Source: Nitrospirota bacterium (lineage in GTDB: Bacteria > Nitrospirota > Thermodesulfovibrionia > Thermodesulfovibrionales > Dissulfurispiraceae). From it: a stretch of 47,643 nt of DNA. Under the pieces are notes generated by a model that ran no database searches, was not told the origin of the DNA, and saw only the letters and a list, made by a program, of their open reading frames with translations. Numbering within the stretch: the stretch's first letter is position 1; each line of letters starts with the position of its first letter. Both the position numbers and the translations under genes were made by a program. Shown here in pieces: positions 1,623-47,643 of this stretch. The DNA lies in assembly GCA_021847795.1 (NCBI GenBank), contig JAJZPZ010000010.1, forward strand, positions 1-47,643. Reading direction: 5' to 3'.

Positions 1623-3197
1623 TCACATTTGTTTATCGCTTAATATGTCCAGAAACAACGCTGTCAGCATAGGATCGAACTGGGTCCCGGCGCCGGTTTT
1701 CAGCTCCCTGATCGCCTCTTCAGGGGTGCGCTTGTTCCGGTACGGCCTGTCGGAAAGCATGGCGTCATAGACGTCCGCAATCGACAGGATCCTCGCCTCA
1801 AAGGGGATGTCCTCGCCGGCAAGCCCGTCGGGATAGCCTGTCCCGTCATACCGTTCATGGTGGTGTTTCATAATGGGGATTATGTCCTTCATCGCTCCCA
1901 GGGGCCTGAGGATCTCCGCTCCCTGCGCAGGATGGCGCCGTATCAGGTCCATCTCCTCGGAGGTCAGCTTTCCCGGCTTGTCGAGTATCCCCTCATAGGT
2001 CCCTATCTTCCCGATATCGTGCAGGATGGCCGCCATCCTGAGCTTGTCGAGCGCGTCCTTATTGAACCTGAGCTTTTCCCCGATCCTTACGGCATAATCC
2101 GCGACCCGCAACGAGTGGCCCCTTGTCCATGTTGATTTGGCATCAATGGCCGACACCAGGGACCTGACAGTGCCCATGAATATTTCCTCTATGCCTTCGA
2201 GCAGCCGCGCGTTTTCCAGGGCAATACCGACCTGCGTTGCAAGCCTTTCAGCGCCCATCATATGGATTTTTGCGAACCATGCAGGCCTGACGCTCGACAT
2301 GACCAGCACGCCGAAAAACCGCCTCTTGACCTGCAGGGGCACACAGAAATAAGAGAAGACATTCTTCTCACTGGCCCACTGGAGCTGCTTCGGGTAATCA
2401 GGGAAATCGAGGGTTATGTCATGCTGGTAAAATGATTTCCCGCTCTCCAAAACCGCGGGGAAGGGAATGTCGGTCTCGTCCAGGATTGTCCCCTTTTCCA
2501 TGCCCGATCCCCAGGAGGCGATCACCGAGAAACTTTTCTTTTCGTGGTCCAGCAGGGCAACCGCAGCGCCGTCGCAGGGGATTATCCTCCTGATCATCTG
2601 GATCGCGGTCTCTATGATGTCATCGGTCTTCAGGTTGGAGATTATTTCCCGGCCTATTTCATACATGAGATGCAGCGTCTCCACCTCATGGATCAAATCC
2701 ATATGGCTTTCCATGCCCTCCCTGTACAGGGTATGGTTTTCAATTCCCATGGAGATATATCTGGCCACGCTTTCTATTATCTGCGTATCCGTGTAATCAA
2801 CGGACAGGTCTTCAGCTATCACCACACCGATCCCCCTGCCCTTGCACAAAAGAGGGCTCACAACAGCTTTTGCCTGCTCTTCAGACAAGCTGAGGCTTTC
2901 GGGCAGCCTGTCGACAATGATGGTATTGTTGTTCATCAGGATGTGATTAATGAACGCGATGCCGTTTTCAGGACATTTCATATAAAGACGCCCGAGCGCC
3001 TTGCCCCTCTCCACGCCCGCCAGGGAAGAGATGACAAAATGCCCCTCGTTGTTCTTAAGAATTATCATGCAGCCCCGGAAACCCAGGTCCGAAGCAATCA
3101 TTTCGGACATACTGCCGACGAGACCGTCTATCCCCTTTGAAGAACTTAATATCAGGGGAATTTTGAAGAAAACATCAGATACTTTTCTGTTCTCCAC
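1623..3197 (-). CDS. GAF-GAF-HD-GYP phosphodiesterase (predicted c-di-GMP hydrolase)
   Basis: A 524-residue cytoplasmic signalling protein. Residues about 10-160 and 175-335 look like two GAF sensor domains joined by a helical linker. Residues about 345-520 form an HD-GYP domain with the complete metal-site signature: HDIGKIG at 393-399 and HHHERYDGTGYP at 445-456. Intact motifs predict hydrolysis of c-di-GMP (established for the family); the GAF ligand is unknown. Its start lies inside the last 23 bases of the HDOD gene, so the two are translationally coupled. A c-di-GMP riboswitch occurs later in this window (44996-45075), so the nucleotide is probably a real second messenger in this cell. 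Confidence 0.9.
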   Translation of the reverse strand: MENRKVSDVFFKIPLILSSSKGIDGLVGSMSEMIASDLGFRGCMIILKNNEGHFVISSLAGVERGKALGRLYMKCPENGIAFINHILMNNNTIIVDRLPESLSLSEEQAKAVVSPLLCKGRGIGVVIAEDLSVDYTDTQIIESVARYISMGIENHTLYREGMESHMDLIHEVETLHLMYEIGREIISNLKTDDIIETAIQMIRRIIPCDGAAVALLDHEKKSFSVIASWGSGMEKGTILDETDIPFPAVLESGKSFYQHDITLDFPDYPKQLQWASEKNVFSYFCVPLQVKRRFFGVLVMSSVRPAWFAKIHMMGAERLATQVGIALENARLLEGIEEIFMGTVRSLVSAIDAKSTWTRGHSLRVADYAVRIGEKLRFNKDALDKLRMAAILHDIGKIGTYEGILDKPGKLTSEEMDLIRRHPAQGAEILRPLGAMKDIIPIMKHHHERYDGTGYPDGLAGEDIPFEARILSIADVYDAMLSDRPYRNKRTPEEAIRELKTGAGTQFDPMLTALFLDILSDKQM

Positions 3198-4047
3198 CTC
3201 TGCCTCCGGATAAGTATTTTGACAGCATCTTGTCGGTCTGGATCAAATCCACAATCTCCACCACGATATCCACGATATCGCCCTCGTCCACTCCCAGGGA
3301 GGCCCAGCCCTTCTCATCAAGCGCAGGCGCCAAAGGGTCGTCGCTGTATGATACTCCTATGCCTTTGGCTATGATATCCGAAAAGTGCACCGTTGCAGCT
3401 GCCTTGAGGTGCGTGCCGCACCGGCCCGGGGTATGGTGATAGGCAATAATATTTTTAATTATATCCGGGAGGTTCCACTTCTCTGCAAGCCATAACCCAA
3501 CCTTGTCATGCGTTATGTGAATCACCTGCCTCTCGGCTTCAATCATAAGCACTCCTCCTGATCGGGCAACATTCTCTATCTCCACTGCCGCTTCTTTCAG
3601 CTGCTGCTTTATCAGTATTTTCCCGATGTCATGAAGCAGGGCGCCTGTCATGATTTCCTCGACGGAGGCAAGCCCGAACCGCCTCGCAAGGAAACCGGCG
3701 ACCATTGAGCAGCAGTATGAATGGTCCCACAGGCCGGGCAGTTTTTCGCCCATACCGCCGAAAAGAGCAGTGCTGAGTATTACCCCCCTGATAAGGTTAC
3801 CCCCCAGCAGGACTACCGCCCTCCTGACGGCAGCTACCTCACTGTGCAGGCCGTAAAAGGGTGAATTGACGAGCTTGAGCACCTTGGTGGAAAGCACCTG
3901 GTCTCTTTCGATGAGCCTGCTCACCTCTTCAATGGAATAATTCACATCCTCAATAAGCTTGAGAATCCTGCCGTGGACTGCGGGAATGGTCGGGAGGTCT
4001 TTTATATTAAGAAGTCTGTCTTTGATATGCGCATCGGTCGGATTCAA
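3175..4047 (-). CDS. HDOD domain-containing signalling protein
   Basis: A 290-residue protein dominated by an HDOD domain (about residues 12-215): the LPTIPAVHGRILKLIED start, the SPFYGL loop, and a retained HDIGKI segment. HDOD proteins are regulatory relatives of HD hydrolases in signal transduction and usually lack demonstrated phosphohydrolase activity. The gene overlaps the downstream GAF/HD-GYP gene by 23 bases and its start overlaps the 96-residue gene upstream by 4 bases. The three therefore form one coupled unit, suggesting joint action in c-di-GMP control. Confidence 0.88.
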   Translation of the reverse strand: MNPTDAHIKDRLLNIKDLPTIPAVHGRILKLIEDVNYSIEEVSRLIERDQVLSTKVLKLVNSPFYGLHSEVAAVRRAVVLLGGNLIRGVILSTALFGGMGEKLPGLWDHSYCCSMVAGFLARRFGLASVEEIMTGALLHDIGKILIKQQLKEAAVEIENVARSGGVLMIEAERQVIHITHDKVGLWLAEKWNLPDIIKNIIAYHHTPGRCGTHLKAAATVHFSDIIAKGIGVSYSDDPLAPALDEKGWASLGVDEGDIVDIVVEIVDLIQTDKMLSKYLSGGRGGEQKSI

Positions 4048-4334
4048 ACGGCCAGCCCCTTTATAGTGTCCTTTATTTTCGCAATCACGGGATGCGCGCC
4101 TGCAGCGCTGAAACGTTTATCCACCTCTTGAAGGACAGCCTCTTCTGCGCCTTTTTCCCTCTTGAGCGGAGCACCCTCGACAATGAGCCGTTTCACATCC
4201 CTGTTCCTCAGGACGGCAATATGCTTTTCCGTCAGCTCCACCCCCTTCATTAATACGATATCGCCGTTTTTGTCCTTTATTGTTACGGCAAGTACCAGGG
4301 ATGGAATTGCCTCATCGATGTCCAGTCTCTGCAT
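4044..4334 (-). CDS. Small protein resembling the N-terminal module of HD-GYP proteins
   Basis: A 96-residue soluble protein with no name I can assign. Its first half has the pattern hydrophobic core - KDKNGDIVLMKGVELTEKHI - short strand, like the G-x-x-L...G-x-L-T-E-K-H module that precedes many HD-GYP or HDOD domains. The second half is charged and helical. It overlaps the HDOD gene by 4 bases and leads a three-gene coupled cluster, so it may be a detached regulatory module acting with the HDOD/HD-GYP proteins. The similarity is from memory of the motif, not from an alignment. Confidence 0.65.
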   Translation of the reverse strand: MQRLDIDEAIPSLVLAVTIKDKNGDIVLMKGVELTEKHIAVLRNRDVKRLIVEGAPLKREKGAEEAVLQEVDKRFSAAGAHPVIAKIKDTIKGLAV

Positions 4335-44818: not shown

Positions 44819-44995
44819 AAGCTCAATTATACGTAGATGTAAGAAGAAGTATGGCGGTTCAGGCAGCACACTCCCTTTTTATTGAGCCTCGGATTCAACC
44901 GGTCTTTCACTTCAGGCATCAGGCGCATTCATTGTCCCTTTTCTCCGTCTACGCGTAATTGCAGGATCTTTGACAGCAGAAAAGCTTTCATGTTT

Positions 44996-45075
44996 CCGAA
45001 AGGGTAAACTCTGGGTGACCAGGGGGCACAAAGCCACGGGTCCTTTATATAAGGACAGCCGGGTTGCCGAAGAGC
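44996..45075 (+). ncRNA. c-di-GMP-I riboswitch (GEMM-I)
   Basis: Conserved blocks appear in order: AAAGGGTAAAC (44999-45009), a stem with GTGA tetraloop (CTGG-GTGA-CCAG, 45011-45022), the CACAAAGCCACGGG block (45027-45040), a stem GTCCTT...AAGGAC (45040-45056), and AGCCGGGTTGCCGAAG (45057-45072). This matches the GEMM consensus nearly base for base, including GNRA tetraloop and GCC-GGGTTGCCGAA end. The base aligned with Vc2 G20 is G, favouring c-di-GMP over the GEMM-Ib (3',3'-cGAMP) variant. It lies 110 bases before a caspase-like gene, with a terminator between. Confidence 0.92.
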
Positions 45076-45106
45076 AGTGCAGACGTTGCATACACCTCCG
45101 TTTAAG

Positions 45107-45139
45107 AGCCTGCTTCCCTTCCGGGGAGCGGGCTTTTTT
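45107..45139 (+). terminator. Intrinsic terminator in the riboswitch leader (expression platform)
   Basis: AGCCTGCTTCCC pairs with GGGGAGCGGGCT (G-U pairs allowed) around a TTCC loop, followed directly by six T residues. It lies between the riboswitch and the caspase-like start codon, so it must be read through for expression. Whether c-di-GMP turns it on or off cannot be told from the sequence. Confidence 0.85.
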
Positions 45140-45184
45140 GTTGTCGGGTCAGGACACTGAAACGATTAACCGGAGGAACACAGT

Positions 45185-46288
45185 ATGTTTAAACAGTCGG
45201 GGAGTATCTGGAATTTCCTGCGGCAGGGGCGGAAGAGCATCCGGTCAGGGCTGCATAATCGGAATATCCCGCCGGTTTCCGGCAGGCTTGCATCAACCTT
45301 TGTTGCCCTTTCGGCAATTCTCTCGATGAGCACCGCAACCTTTGCGCAAAAACCCGAGGCCGCCGTGATACAAAACGGAAAGGCCGCTGTCATCAAAGCC
45401 TACTCCGGGGCGGGAAATACCCCCCCTGATTCAGGCAAGCCCCTGGGCCGGGCAGACAAAAAGGTGGATGCTATTGCAGGCATATCCGACGGCAAAATAG
45501 CGAACGAATCCTGCCTTTACATCCTGGCTGTCGGAATAAACGAGTACAAAAACCCCAGGTACACGCTCAAATACGGCAGACCCGATGCAGAAGCCTTTGT
45601 GCAGGCAGTGGAAGAGCATGGCAAAAAGATTTTCAGCCGTATCGTGAAGCAGACGGTTTACGACACCCAGGCCACCCGCGAAAACGTGGAAAGCACTTTT
45701 CGTAAAATCATAGCAGAGGCGCGGCCCCAGGACGTATTCGTGTTCTATTATGCGGGACATGGGGTCATGAGCAAGGGGGGCCTCTTCAGGAAGCCGGAGT
45801 TCTACATGGCGCTTACGGATGTGACAAAATTATACGGGGACGACGAGCTGCTGGAACGCAGGGGATTCTCTGCGGAGATGCTCAGGGATTCCATTATGAA
45901 AATAAAGGCGCAGAAGCAGCTTGTGGTGCTTGACACATGCCATGCAGGCGGAGCGCTGGAGAGCTTTGCAGTCCATGAGGGGCCCGGCGGGAAGACCATC
46001 AGCAAGCTTGAAGGGAATACGGGGATTACGGTGCTTGCAGCATCCGGGGCGACGCAGTCGGCCACAGAGTTCAGGCAACTGGGGCACGGCGTATTCACCT
46101 ACGCCCTGATCAGGGGACTCGCCGGCGAGGCGGACAACGGGTCCTGCCCGGATGGAAGAATAACGGTCAAAGAGCTTGAGACCTATTTAAACGGCAAAGT
46201 GCCGGAATTAATAAGGCAATACGGAGGCAAGGCGCAAAACCCGAACAGCTTTGCCCGCGGCCGGGATTTCTCTCTCGGGATAAAATAA
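45185..46288 (+). CDS. Exported caspase-like (peptidase C14) protein
   Basis: A 367-residue protein. The first ~54 residues are a signal peptide with a long basic n-region and a hydrophobic core ending near TATFA-QK. Residues about 105-365 are a caspase-like domain with catalytic H192 (FYYAGHG) and C252 (LDTCHAGG). A strong GGAGG precedes the ATG, so the long leader is real. It is likely to act in the periplasm or outside, cleaving after Arg/Lys or Asp; specificity is unknown. Upstream are a c-di-GMP riboswitch and terminator. The gene that follows encodes a sigma-54 regulator. Substrates and processing are inference. Confidence 0.88.
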   Translation: MFKQSGSIWNFLRQGRKSIRSGLHNRNIPPVSGRLASTFVALSAILSMSTATFAQKPEAAVIQNGKAAVIKAYSGAGNTPPDSGKPLGRADKKVDAIAGISDGKIANESCLYILAVGINEYKNPRYTLKYGRPDAEAFVQAVEEHGKKIFSRIVKQTVYDTQATRENVESTFRKIIAEARPQDVFVFYYAGHGVMSKGGLFRKPEFYMALTDVTKLYGDDELLERRGFSAEMLRDSIMKIKAQKQLVVLDTCHAGGALESFAVHEGPGGKTISKLEGNTGITVLAASGATQSATEFRQLGHGVFTYALIRGLAGEADNGSCPDGRITVKELETYLNGKVPELIRQYGGKAQNPNSFARGRDFSLGIK

Positions 46289-46484: not shown

Positions 46485-47643
46485 ATGGACAAGGTATTAA
46501 TTGTTGACGATGACGACATGATCCGCTTCACCATGAGCGAGATCATGGACAGCAACGGCTTTTTCCCCCTGGAAGCATCCAACGGCAGGCAGGCAATCGA
46601 AGTGCTCAGGAAGGAGCGGCCCGCAGCAGTCCTCCTTGACCTCAAGATGCCGGGCATGGACGGCATCGAAACCATGCAGGAACTCAGGAAGATAGCCCCC
46701 GACATCCCCATCATCATTGTGACTGCCTTTGGAGACATACAGACCGCGGTGGAGGCGATCAAGCTGGGGGCCTATGACTTCATCCTGAAGCCCCCGGATT
46801 TCGACAGGCTCATCCTCACCCTGAAGAGGGCGGCAGAGAAGCTGGAACTGGAGCGCGCGGTAAAGAGGCTCAACACCGCTGTTGAGACCTCCCTTGAGTG
46901 GCATCTGGGAAAAGGCCGGGTGATCAAGGGCATTATCGAGCAAATACACCAGGTGGCCTGGAGCGACTTCTCCGTAATCATCCAGGGGGAGACGGGGACA
47001 GGGAAGTCGACCATAGCCAGGATGATCCATAACCTGAGCAAAAGGGCAAACGGCCCCTTTACCATCGTGGACATGGGGGCTATACCGGAGACCCTTGTGG
47101 AAAGCGAACTCTTCGGGCATGAGCGGGGGGCCTTCACCGGGGCGGAAAAAAAGCGGAAAGGTTACTTCGAGATAACCGGCGGGGGTACCATCCTGATCGA
47201 CGAACTTGAAAACATGTCCCCCTACGTACAGAGCAAACTGCTGCGGGTGGTGGAGGAGCGGAATATCTGTCCCCTGGGCAGCACCCGGTCCGCAGAGATA
47301 GACGTCAGGATCATAGCTGCAACCAATACGGACATCAGGCAGGCAGTGCGGGAGAAGAAGTTCAGAGAAGACCTGTTCTTCCGCCTGGGGGAGTTCATCA
47401 TTGACCTGCCCCCTTTGCGGGAGAGGGTTGATGATATTCCGTTTCTTGCGCAGAAGTTCTTCCGGGAAGCTGCAGCGGAACTCAACAAGCAGATGGAAGA
47501 GGTCTCGGACGATGCGGTCAGCCTCCTGCGGCAGTATCCCTGGCCCGGCAATGTGAGGGAACTGAAAAACGTGATCAGGAGGGCCGTCCTCCTCTGCAGC
47601 GGCGACTCGGTCACCGCTGAACATATCGACCTCCTCGTCGGAG
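46485..47643 (+). CDS. NtrC-family sigma-54 response regulator, 3' end outside the window
   Basis: 386 codons are present; the C-terminal DNA-binding part is cut off. The receiver starts MDKVLIVDDDDM, with phospho-acceptor Asp in LLDLKMPGMD. The AAA+ domain has GETGTGKST (Walker A), GAFTGA, and the Walker B ILIDELEN. It closely resembles the regulator at 30846-32216, sharing IKLGAYDFILKPPDFD, so the two are paralogues. The ATG (46485-46487) has only a modest GGTAGGGCT site. It follows the caspase-like gene by 196 bases with no gene between. Confidence 0.92.
   Translation, partial: MDKVLIVDDDDMIRFTMSEIMDSNGFFPLEASNGRQAIEVLRKERPAAVLLDLKMPGMDGIETMQELRKIAPDIPIIIVTAFGDIQTAVEAIKLGAYDFILKPPDFDRLILTLKRAAEKLELERAVKRLNTAVETSLEWHLGKGRVIKGIIEQIHQVAWSDFSVIIQGETGTGKSTIARMIHNLSKRANGPFTIVDMGAIPETLVESELFGHERGAFTGAEKKRKGYFEITGGGTILIDELENMSPYVQSKLLRVVEERNICPLGSTRSAEIDVRIIAATNTDIRQAVREKKFREDLFFRLGEFIIDLPPLRERVDDIPFLAQKFFREAAAELNKQMEEVSDDAVSLLRQYPWPGNVRELKNVIRRAVLLCSGDSVTAEHIDLLVG

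Follow-up and report, generated by a model that had tools for sequence, protein, structure and literature searches.

A c-di-GMP-I riboswitch predicted to act as a transcriptional OFF switch precedes the gene of a putatively exported, probably active caspase homologue in Nitrospirota

A gene for a caspase homologue lies directly behind a c-di-GMP riboswitch in a Nitrospirota contig. The stretch of DNA analyzed, referred to here as the window, comprises all 47,643 nucleotides given for contig JAJZPZ010000010.1 (assembly GCA_021847795.1) and comes from a little-known group of uncultured Nitrospirota. Caspase homologues are abundant in bacteria, and the roles of most of them are unclear. In this case, the gene is preceded by a possible promoter element, a c-di-GMP-I aptamer, a terminator and a ribosome-binding site, and the same window contains a gene of the c-di-GMP phosphodiesterase type:

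1623-3197, minus strand: protein with GAF and HD-GYP domains, of the c-di-GMP phosphodiesterase type (PF13487, HD_5, E = 1.3e-41), listed as context
44969-44977, plus strand: TTTGACAGC, possible promoter element recognized in alignments, kept ahead of the aptamers of the caspase and ABC-exporter genes
44993-45072, plus strand: c-di-GMP-I (GEMM-I) aptamer, from RF01051 and RF03167 scores and from pocket residues read in the sequence and alignment
44993-45004, plus strand: 5′ strand of the aptamer, UUUCCGAAAGGG (P strand), which by partition functions would capture the terminator loop and 3′ arm without ligand
45072-45077, plus strand: GAGCAG, putative antiterminator strand; in folding of intermediates its partner is CUGCUU (45110-45115) in the terminator 5′ arm
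45104-45139, plus strand: Rho-independent terminator apart from the aptamer, whose stem (45104-45137) has 15 pairs and whose T run ends at 45139
45172-45176, plus strand: GGAGG, ribosome-binding site read in the sequence
45185-46288, plus strand: C14 caspase homologue (orthocaspase-like) of 367 amino acids with a predicted export signal, from PF00656, AlphaFold2, Foldseek and the catalytic dyad

A preliminary description of the window had placed a GEMM-I riboswitch at 44996-45075 and a terminator at 45107-45139 ahead of an exported C14 protein with intact His192 and Cys252, and had pointed to the HD-GYP gene. All of these were recovered, the coordinates being right to within three bases. In a covariance search, RF01051 matched 44993-45071 (plus strand) over its entire length (model positions 1-87 of 87) with 67.1 bits, well above the gathering score of 35 (E = 7.8e-13). 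A cmscan of the whole window returned a single riboswitch, which also matched RF03167, a member of the same clan, at 44994-45072 (plus strand; 65.0 bits, gathering 59, E = 3.3e-13). RF03167 was the top Rfam match by E-value, and RF01051 was the higher by bits.

The terminator hairpin of the window has a predicted energy of about -25 kcal/mol and begins 32 nucleotides after the aptamer ends; it does not lie over the 3′ strand of the aptamer, as it does in ON switches of the pilM type. An equivalent separate terminator is present in all three orthologous leaders. In the family as a whole, the terminator of 9 of 37 c-di-GMP-I sites recruits the 3′ strand of the aptamer itself, as in the ON arrangement described for Geobacter pilM, whereas the caspase and ABC-exporter leaders have the separate terminator that is the OFF arrangement of Cd1. 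These two groups of leaders have one aptamer subtype and one terminator type in common. Motifs like TTTGACAGC also occur at near-constant spacing upstream of seven aptamers (window 44969-44977, L082, L084, L086, L015, L078, and L081), exact in some of the leaders and variant in the rest; no -10 box matching the motif at the usual spacing was found in the caspase and ABC-exporter leaders.

Partition functions were calculated on growing transcripts of the seven caspase and ABC-exporter leaders, with the ligand-bound state imitated by hard constraints and not by a measured binding energy. In the ligand-free calculation, the terminator loop and 3′ arm were paired, as they emerged, with the UUUCCGAAAGGG strand or its equivalent in all seven leaders, and in most of them the terminator 5′ arm was also held by the stretch downstream of the aptamer. 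When the aptamer was forced, the terminator formed in every leader. The duplex between the UUUCCGAAAGGG strand and its own terminator in the window was calculated at -14.2 kcal/mol, a value equalled by 1 of 101 control terminators. Across the seven leaders, 0, 0, 0, 1, 1, 4, and 11 of 101 controls equalled the leader's own terminator in complementarity to the 5′ strand, and in six leaders the own terminator beat nearly all controls. The competitor is predicted to be the aptamer 5′ strand. The GAGCAG/CUGCUU pairing is likewise kept, with base changes, in related leaders. A direct competition between the antiterminator strand and P1 was considered and dropped, as folding shows the two to be adjacent and compatible. 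In the full-length leader of the window, the terminator is the predicted winner both in the presence and in the absence of ligand. Any switching must then be kinetic and would depend on how the RNA folds as it is transcribed. By prediction, the leader has what defines an OFF platform of the Cd1 type, namely a bound aptamer compatible with the terminator and an antiterminator that competes.

These calculations suggest how the leader may operate. At low c-di-GMP, the UUUCCGAAAGGG strand would capture the emerging terminator loop and 3′ arm, and GAGCAG downstream of the aptamer would hold the terminator 5′ arm; with the terminator blocked, RNA polymerase would read through, and the protease would be made and exported. 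At high c-di-GMP, the ligand would lock the 5′ strand in the aptamer core, the terminator would form and transcription would stop. We infer this read-through at low and termination at high c-di-GMP from the folding models, and control in this direction, on which the preliminary description was silent, with the caspase made when c-di-GMP is low, is likely. Since GAGCAG abuts P1 without overlapping it, the ligand could in principle stabilize the antiterminator instead. The leader would then be an ON switch in which c-di-GMP stabilizes P1 stacked on the GAGCAG/CUGCUU antiterminator, and the caspase would be made at high c-di-GMP. In related leaders the antiterminator strand does start right after the P1 3′ strand and both coexist in half-transcribed RNA, and other GEMMs of the same genomes have ON architecture. 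However, once the terminator 3′ arm has emerged, the forced aptamer loses the antiterminator and the terminator forms in seven of seven leaders, the ligand-free state blocks the terminator for longer, and the layout with a separate terminator is that of the tested OFF switch Cd1 (PMC9262584). We regard an ON switch as unlikely, if worth keeping in view.

The C14 gene begins with ATG at 45185 and reaches its stop at 46288. Its product matches Peptidase_C14 (PF00656) with an E-value of 2.8e-15 and 57.1 bits, against a cut-off of 21.4. The AlphaFold2 model has a mean pLDDT of 69, with most of the C14 core above 85 and the first 101 residues disordered, and Foldseek matched the model to GSU0716, metacaspases, and MALT1 with E-values of about 1e-8. 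The caspase fold is assigned on the agreement of Pfam, model, and Foldseek. His192 (codon 45758-45760), Asp250, and Cys252 (codon 45938-45940) are invariant in 13 aligned homologues, and the protein is probably an active caspase-like cysteine protease. The invariant Asp250 next to Cys252 would fit, but does not prove, cleavage after Arg or Lys. The predicted export signal, read from the sequence, covers residues 1-54, with a hydrophobic core at residues 38-48 followed by an A-x-A-like site (TFA/QKPE); the orthologues look alike in this respect. Downstream of the caspase gene, a sigma-54 response regulator (46485-47643, plus strand) is cut by the contig end; no such gene was seen adjoining the caspase orthologues among those read.

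Could the caspase be a conflict or cell-death effector, of the EACC1 or anti-phage kind, with the riboswitch as its timing device? Weak matches to the EACC1-associated caspase family (NF047832, NCBIfam caspase_w_EACC1) and to the PADLOC caspase profile point that way, but the former reaches 85.5 bits where the cut-off is 140. The annotated neighbors include no defense genes, and an export signal is predicted both in this protein and in its closest relatives, the long WD40-caspase proteins, all of which makes such an effector improbable. The preliminary description had proposed proteolysis or cell-death-like envelope remodeling, and the cell-death part found no support here.

The ligand pocket was read in the sequence of the window aptamer and its Rfam alignment, with positions numbered as in Vc2. 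The equivalents of G20, A47, and C92 are G, A, and C, read as AGGGUAAAC, GCACAAAGCC, and UUGCCGAAG. In the alignment, the 47-equivalent is A (GCACAAAG) and not the G of the RF03167 consensus ACGCGAA; that a G here marks the GGC variant represented by RF03167 is deduced from the family name and consensus. Identity as a GGC variant was dropped because the A is kept, despite the score above gathering. At the 20-equivalent, the window and all three orthologous leaders have G, where GEMM-Ib aptamers for 3′,3′-cGAMP would have A. As G, A, and C are all kept, the aptamer is read as the canonical c-di-GMP type, neither a GGC nor a cGAMP variant, and its ligand is predicted to be c-di-GMP and not cGAMP. 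A c-di-GMP network is encoded in the source genome, judging by its 32 GGDEF domains and the HD-GYP gene of the window, and the 3.54 Mb genome holds six c-di-GMP-I sites, the window aptamer among them. For 3′,3′-cGAMP or another dinucleotide as ligand speak the existence of cGAMP-binding GEMM-I variants in Geobacter, position 20 being a selectivity factor only (PMC9262584), and the better E-value of the variant family. The G at the 20-equivalent, the canonical A47 and C92 equivalents, the higher bit score of RF01051, and the number of GGDEF domains tell against it, and we consider it distinctly improbable.

Orthologues of the caspase were sought in 60 relatives first and then in 176 genomes of the order. 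Among the 176, orthologues were identified in four (G000, G002, G007, and G019), from three genera, with E-values no higher than 1e-179; the C14 gene that came next was at 5e-54. The orthologous caspases are 62-66% identical, and for two of the four there are matching named records (Nitrospira sp. Ru_enrich_NS and Nitrospirales bacterium SJ299). When they were checked for loss of the GEMM element, all four had kept it: each has a c-di-GMP-I aptamer upstream, along with a terminator apart from it. They also have a tldD-lpxC-HTH-Sua5 neighborhood in common, with lpxC, the HTH gene, and Sua5 as flanking genes in all four, and this single syntenic site indicates one evolutionary event and not four independent gains. 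Nothing can be concluded from the missing caspase of G001, a genome of the same genus, as lpxC is missing there too. No GEMM was found within 1.5 kb of 15 more distant C14 loci of the family and order or, in the stretches searched, at C14 genes of 11 relatives from other phyla, and none of 22 GEMM loci sampled across the order had a C14 gene. As the distant C14 genes lack the element, the pairing of riboswitch and caspase is probably a single acquisition maintained by selection. That the element is a remnant, a genuine aptamer without regulatory effect on the caspase, is very improbable: the window terminator does form in both states at equilibrium and regulation of the caspase is a prediction only, but the strands of all three parts, aptamer, terminator, and antiterminator, have been retained in four genomes whose caspases have diverged to 62-66% identity and whose flanking intergenic sequence aligns poorly.

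Scanning genome contigs with the single protein returned no relatives, and a scan with the four-sequence alignment returned 13. The nearest relatives read outside Nitrospirota are exported WD40-caspase proteins of about 1040-1080 amino acids from Desulfaltia, Elusimicrobia, and Bacteroidota. The G002 orthologue retains WD-type repeats, recognized by eye, between signal and caspase, which suggests that the window protein is a shortened descendant of this WD40-caspase type.

The 37 c-di-GMP-I sites of the family are distributed over 12 of 31 genomes. The genes downstream include four caspases, three ABC exporters, an S8 subtilase, a C10 peptidase, and a GH18 enzyme, all three secreted, as well as cytochromes, CheW, a chemoreceptor, a GGDEF-EAL protein, and others. 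Secreted hydrolases are a recurring GEMM target in this family. In the source genome, a GEMM-I aptamer immediately precedes the gene of the subtilase (L012:12372-13667, minus strand), and in G016 the C10 peptidase gene comes second after one (L088:1384-4131, plus strand). Another group comprises near-identical aptamers that run straight into a strong terminator (G000:C24:20690-20769, minus strand, equal to L014:7691-7770; G007:C19:9676, L097; G007:C31:12275, L098; and G002:C2:42196, L101). No consistent gene follows them and two face convergent genes; these could be stand-alone c-di-GMP-binding small RNAs. A review of C. difficile also names an orphan class-I riboswitch of unknown function (PMC11477304). 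Tandem c-di-GMP-I aptamers about 107 bases apart lie at a contig end (L080; G016:C95:3807-3884 and 3991-4070), their target gene out of view, and in two genera a GEMM-I aptamer precedes a small gene that is HU-like by sequence only (L074, G004:C59:76816; L085, G001:C57:13481).

Computation establishes an aptamer whose pocket is of the c-di-GMP type, a terminator apart from it, a C14 gene that encodes the catalytic dyad, and the conservation of this entire arrangement in all four orthologues found. On balance, we favor the reading that this canonical c-di-GMP-I riboswitch is an OFF switch acting on transcription of the gene for a caspase-like cysteine protease that is exported and probably active. 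Its target had been called unusual beforehand. The C14 family in Nitrospirota is indeed new as a target, and no link of a riboswitch to a metacaspase, or of a c-di-GMP riboswitch to a caspase, was apparent in titles and abstracts of the open-licence literature. The claim for an exported protease as such was overstated and needs trimming, given the C. difficile protease PPEP-1 (PMC11477304) and the GEMM elements upstream of secreted S8 and C10 proteases and of GH18 in this family; the riboswitch class and the regulatory logic are known. By weaker inference, a periplasmic or surface protease might cut surface or matrix proteins after Lys or Arg during the change to a low-c-di-GMP motile or dispersing state, as PPEP-1 does or, functionally, LapG. 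An exported caspase made at low c-di-GMP would fit this pattern of proteolysis on leaving the sessile state, and by analogy, cleavage of surface proteins or detachment is a more probable role than cell death. Only tentatively do we suggest a c-di-GMP-gated surface or matrix "sheddase" of the caspase family in Nitrospirota, made only when c-di-GMP falls, its own aptamer strand capturing the terminator, as one of several secreted proteases (C14, S8, and C10) in a larger riboswitch-controlled regulon. It would be an exported bacterial caspase homologue with a role unrelated to cell death. The conserved second-messenger switch provides a testable hypothesis, that the caspase is needed at low c-di-GMP and acts outside the cytoplasm. 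In this way, whether the cell sticks or moves would be linked to a relative of the caspases. It would also widen the targets of c-di-GMP riboswitches past the C. difficile metalloprotease precedent and, by prediction, place OFF and ON platforms side by side within one bacterial family.

Several known systems resemble parts of this arrangement. The WD40-caspase proteins of Desulfobacterota, Elusimicrobia, and Bacteroidota likewise carry this C14 domain, at 41-60% identity, after an export signal, but they are about 1040-1080 amino acids long, with WD40 repeats where read, and have no GEMM element. In Pseudomonas, LapD-LapG releases the activity of a periplasmic cysteine protease at low c-di-GMP (PMC3032545); there, a membrane receptor controls protein activity without a riboswitch, and LapG is not a caspase. 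In Cd1 of C. difficile, the terminator lies apart from the aptamer and can form alongside it, and the antiterminator competes with the bound aptamer (PMC9262584). The Cd1 antiterminator consists of strands T+A+H, whereas in the window the predicted partner of the terminator 3′ arm is the aptamer 5′ strand (P), and that of the 5′ arm is the stretch downstream of the aptamer. A dependence of control on co-transcriptional folding, expected for the window, has been reported for Cd1. Class I riboswitches of C. difficile are transcriptional OFF switches, and one of them controls PPEP-1 (CD2830/ZmpI), a secreted protease made at low c-di-GMP that strips adhesins (PMC11477304). PPEP-1 is a metalloprotease with known adhesin substrates and the window encodes a C14 cysteine protease of Nitrospirota, but the two have in common a c-di-GMP-I aptamer, a target that is, here by prediction, an exported protease, and activity that, here again by prediction, belongs to the state of low c-di-GMP.
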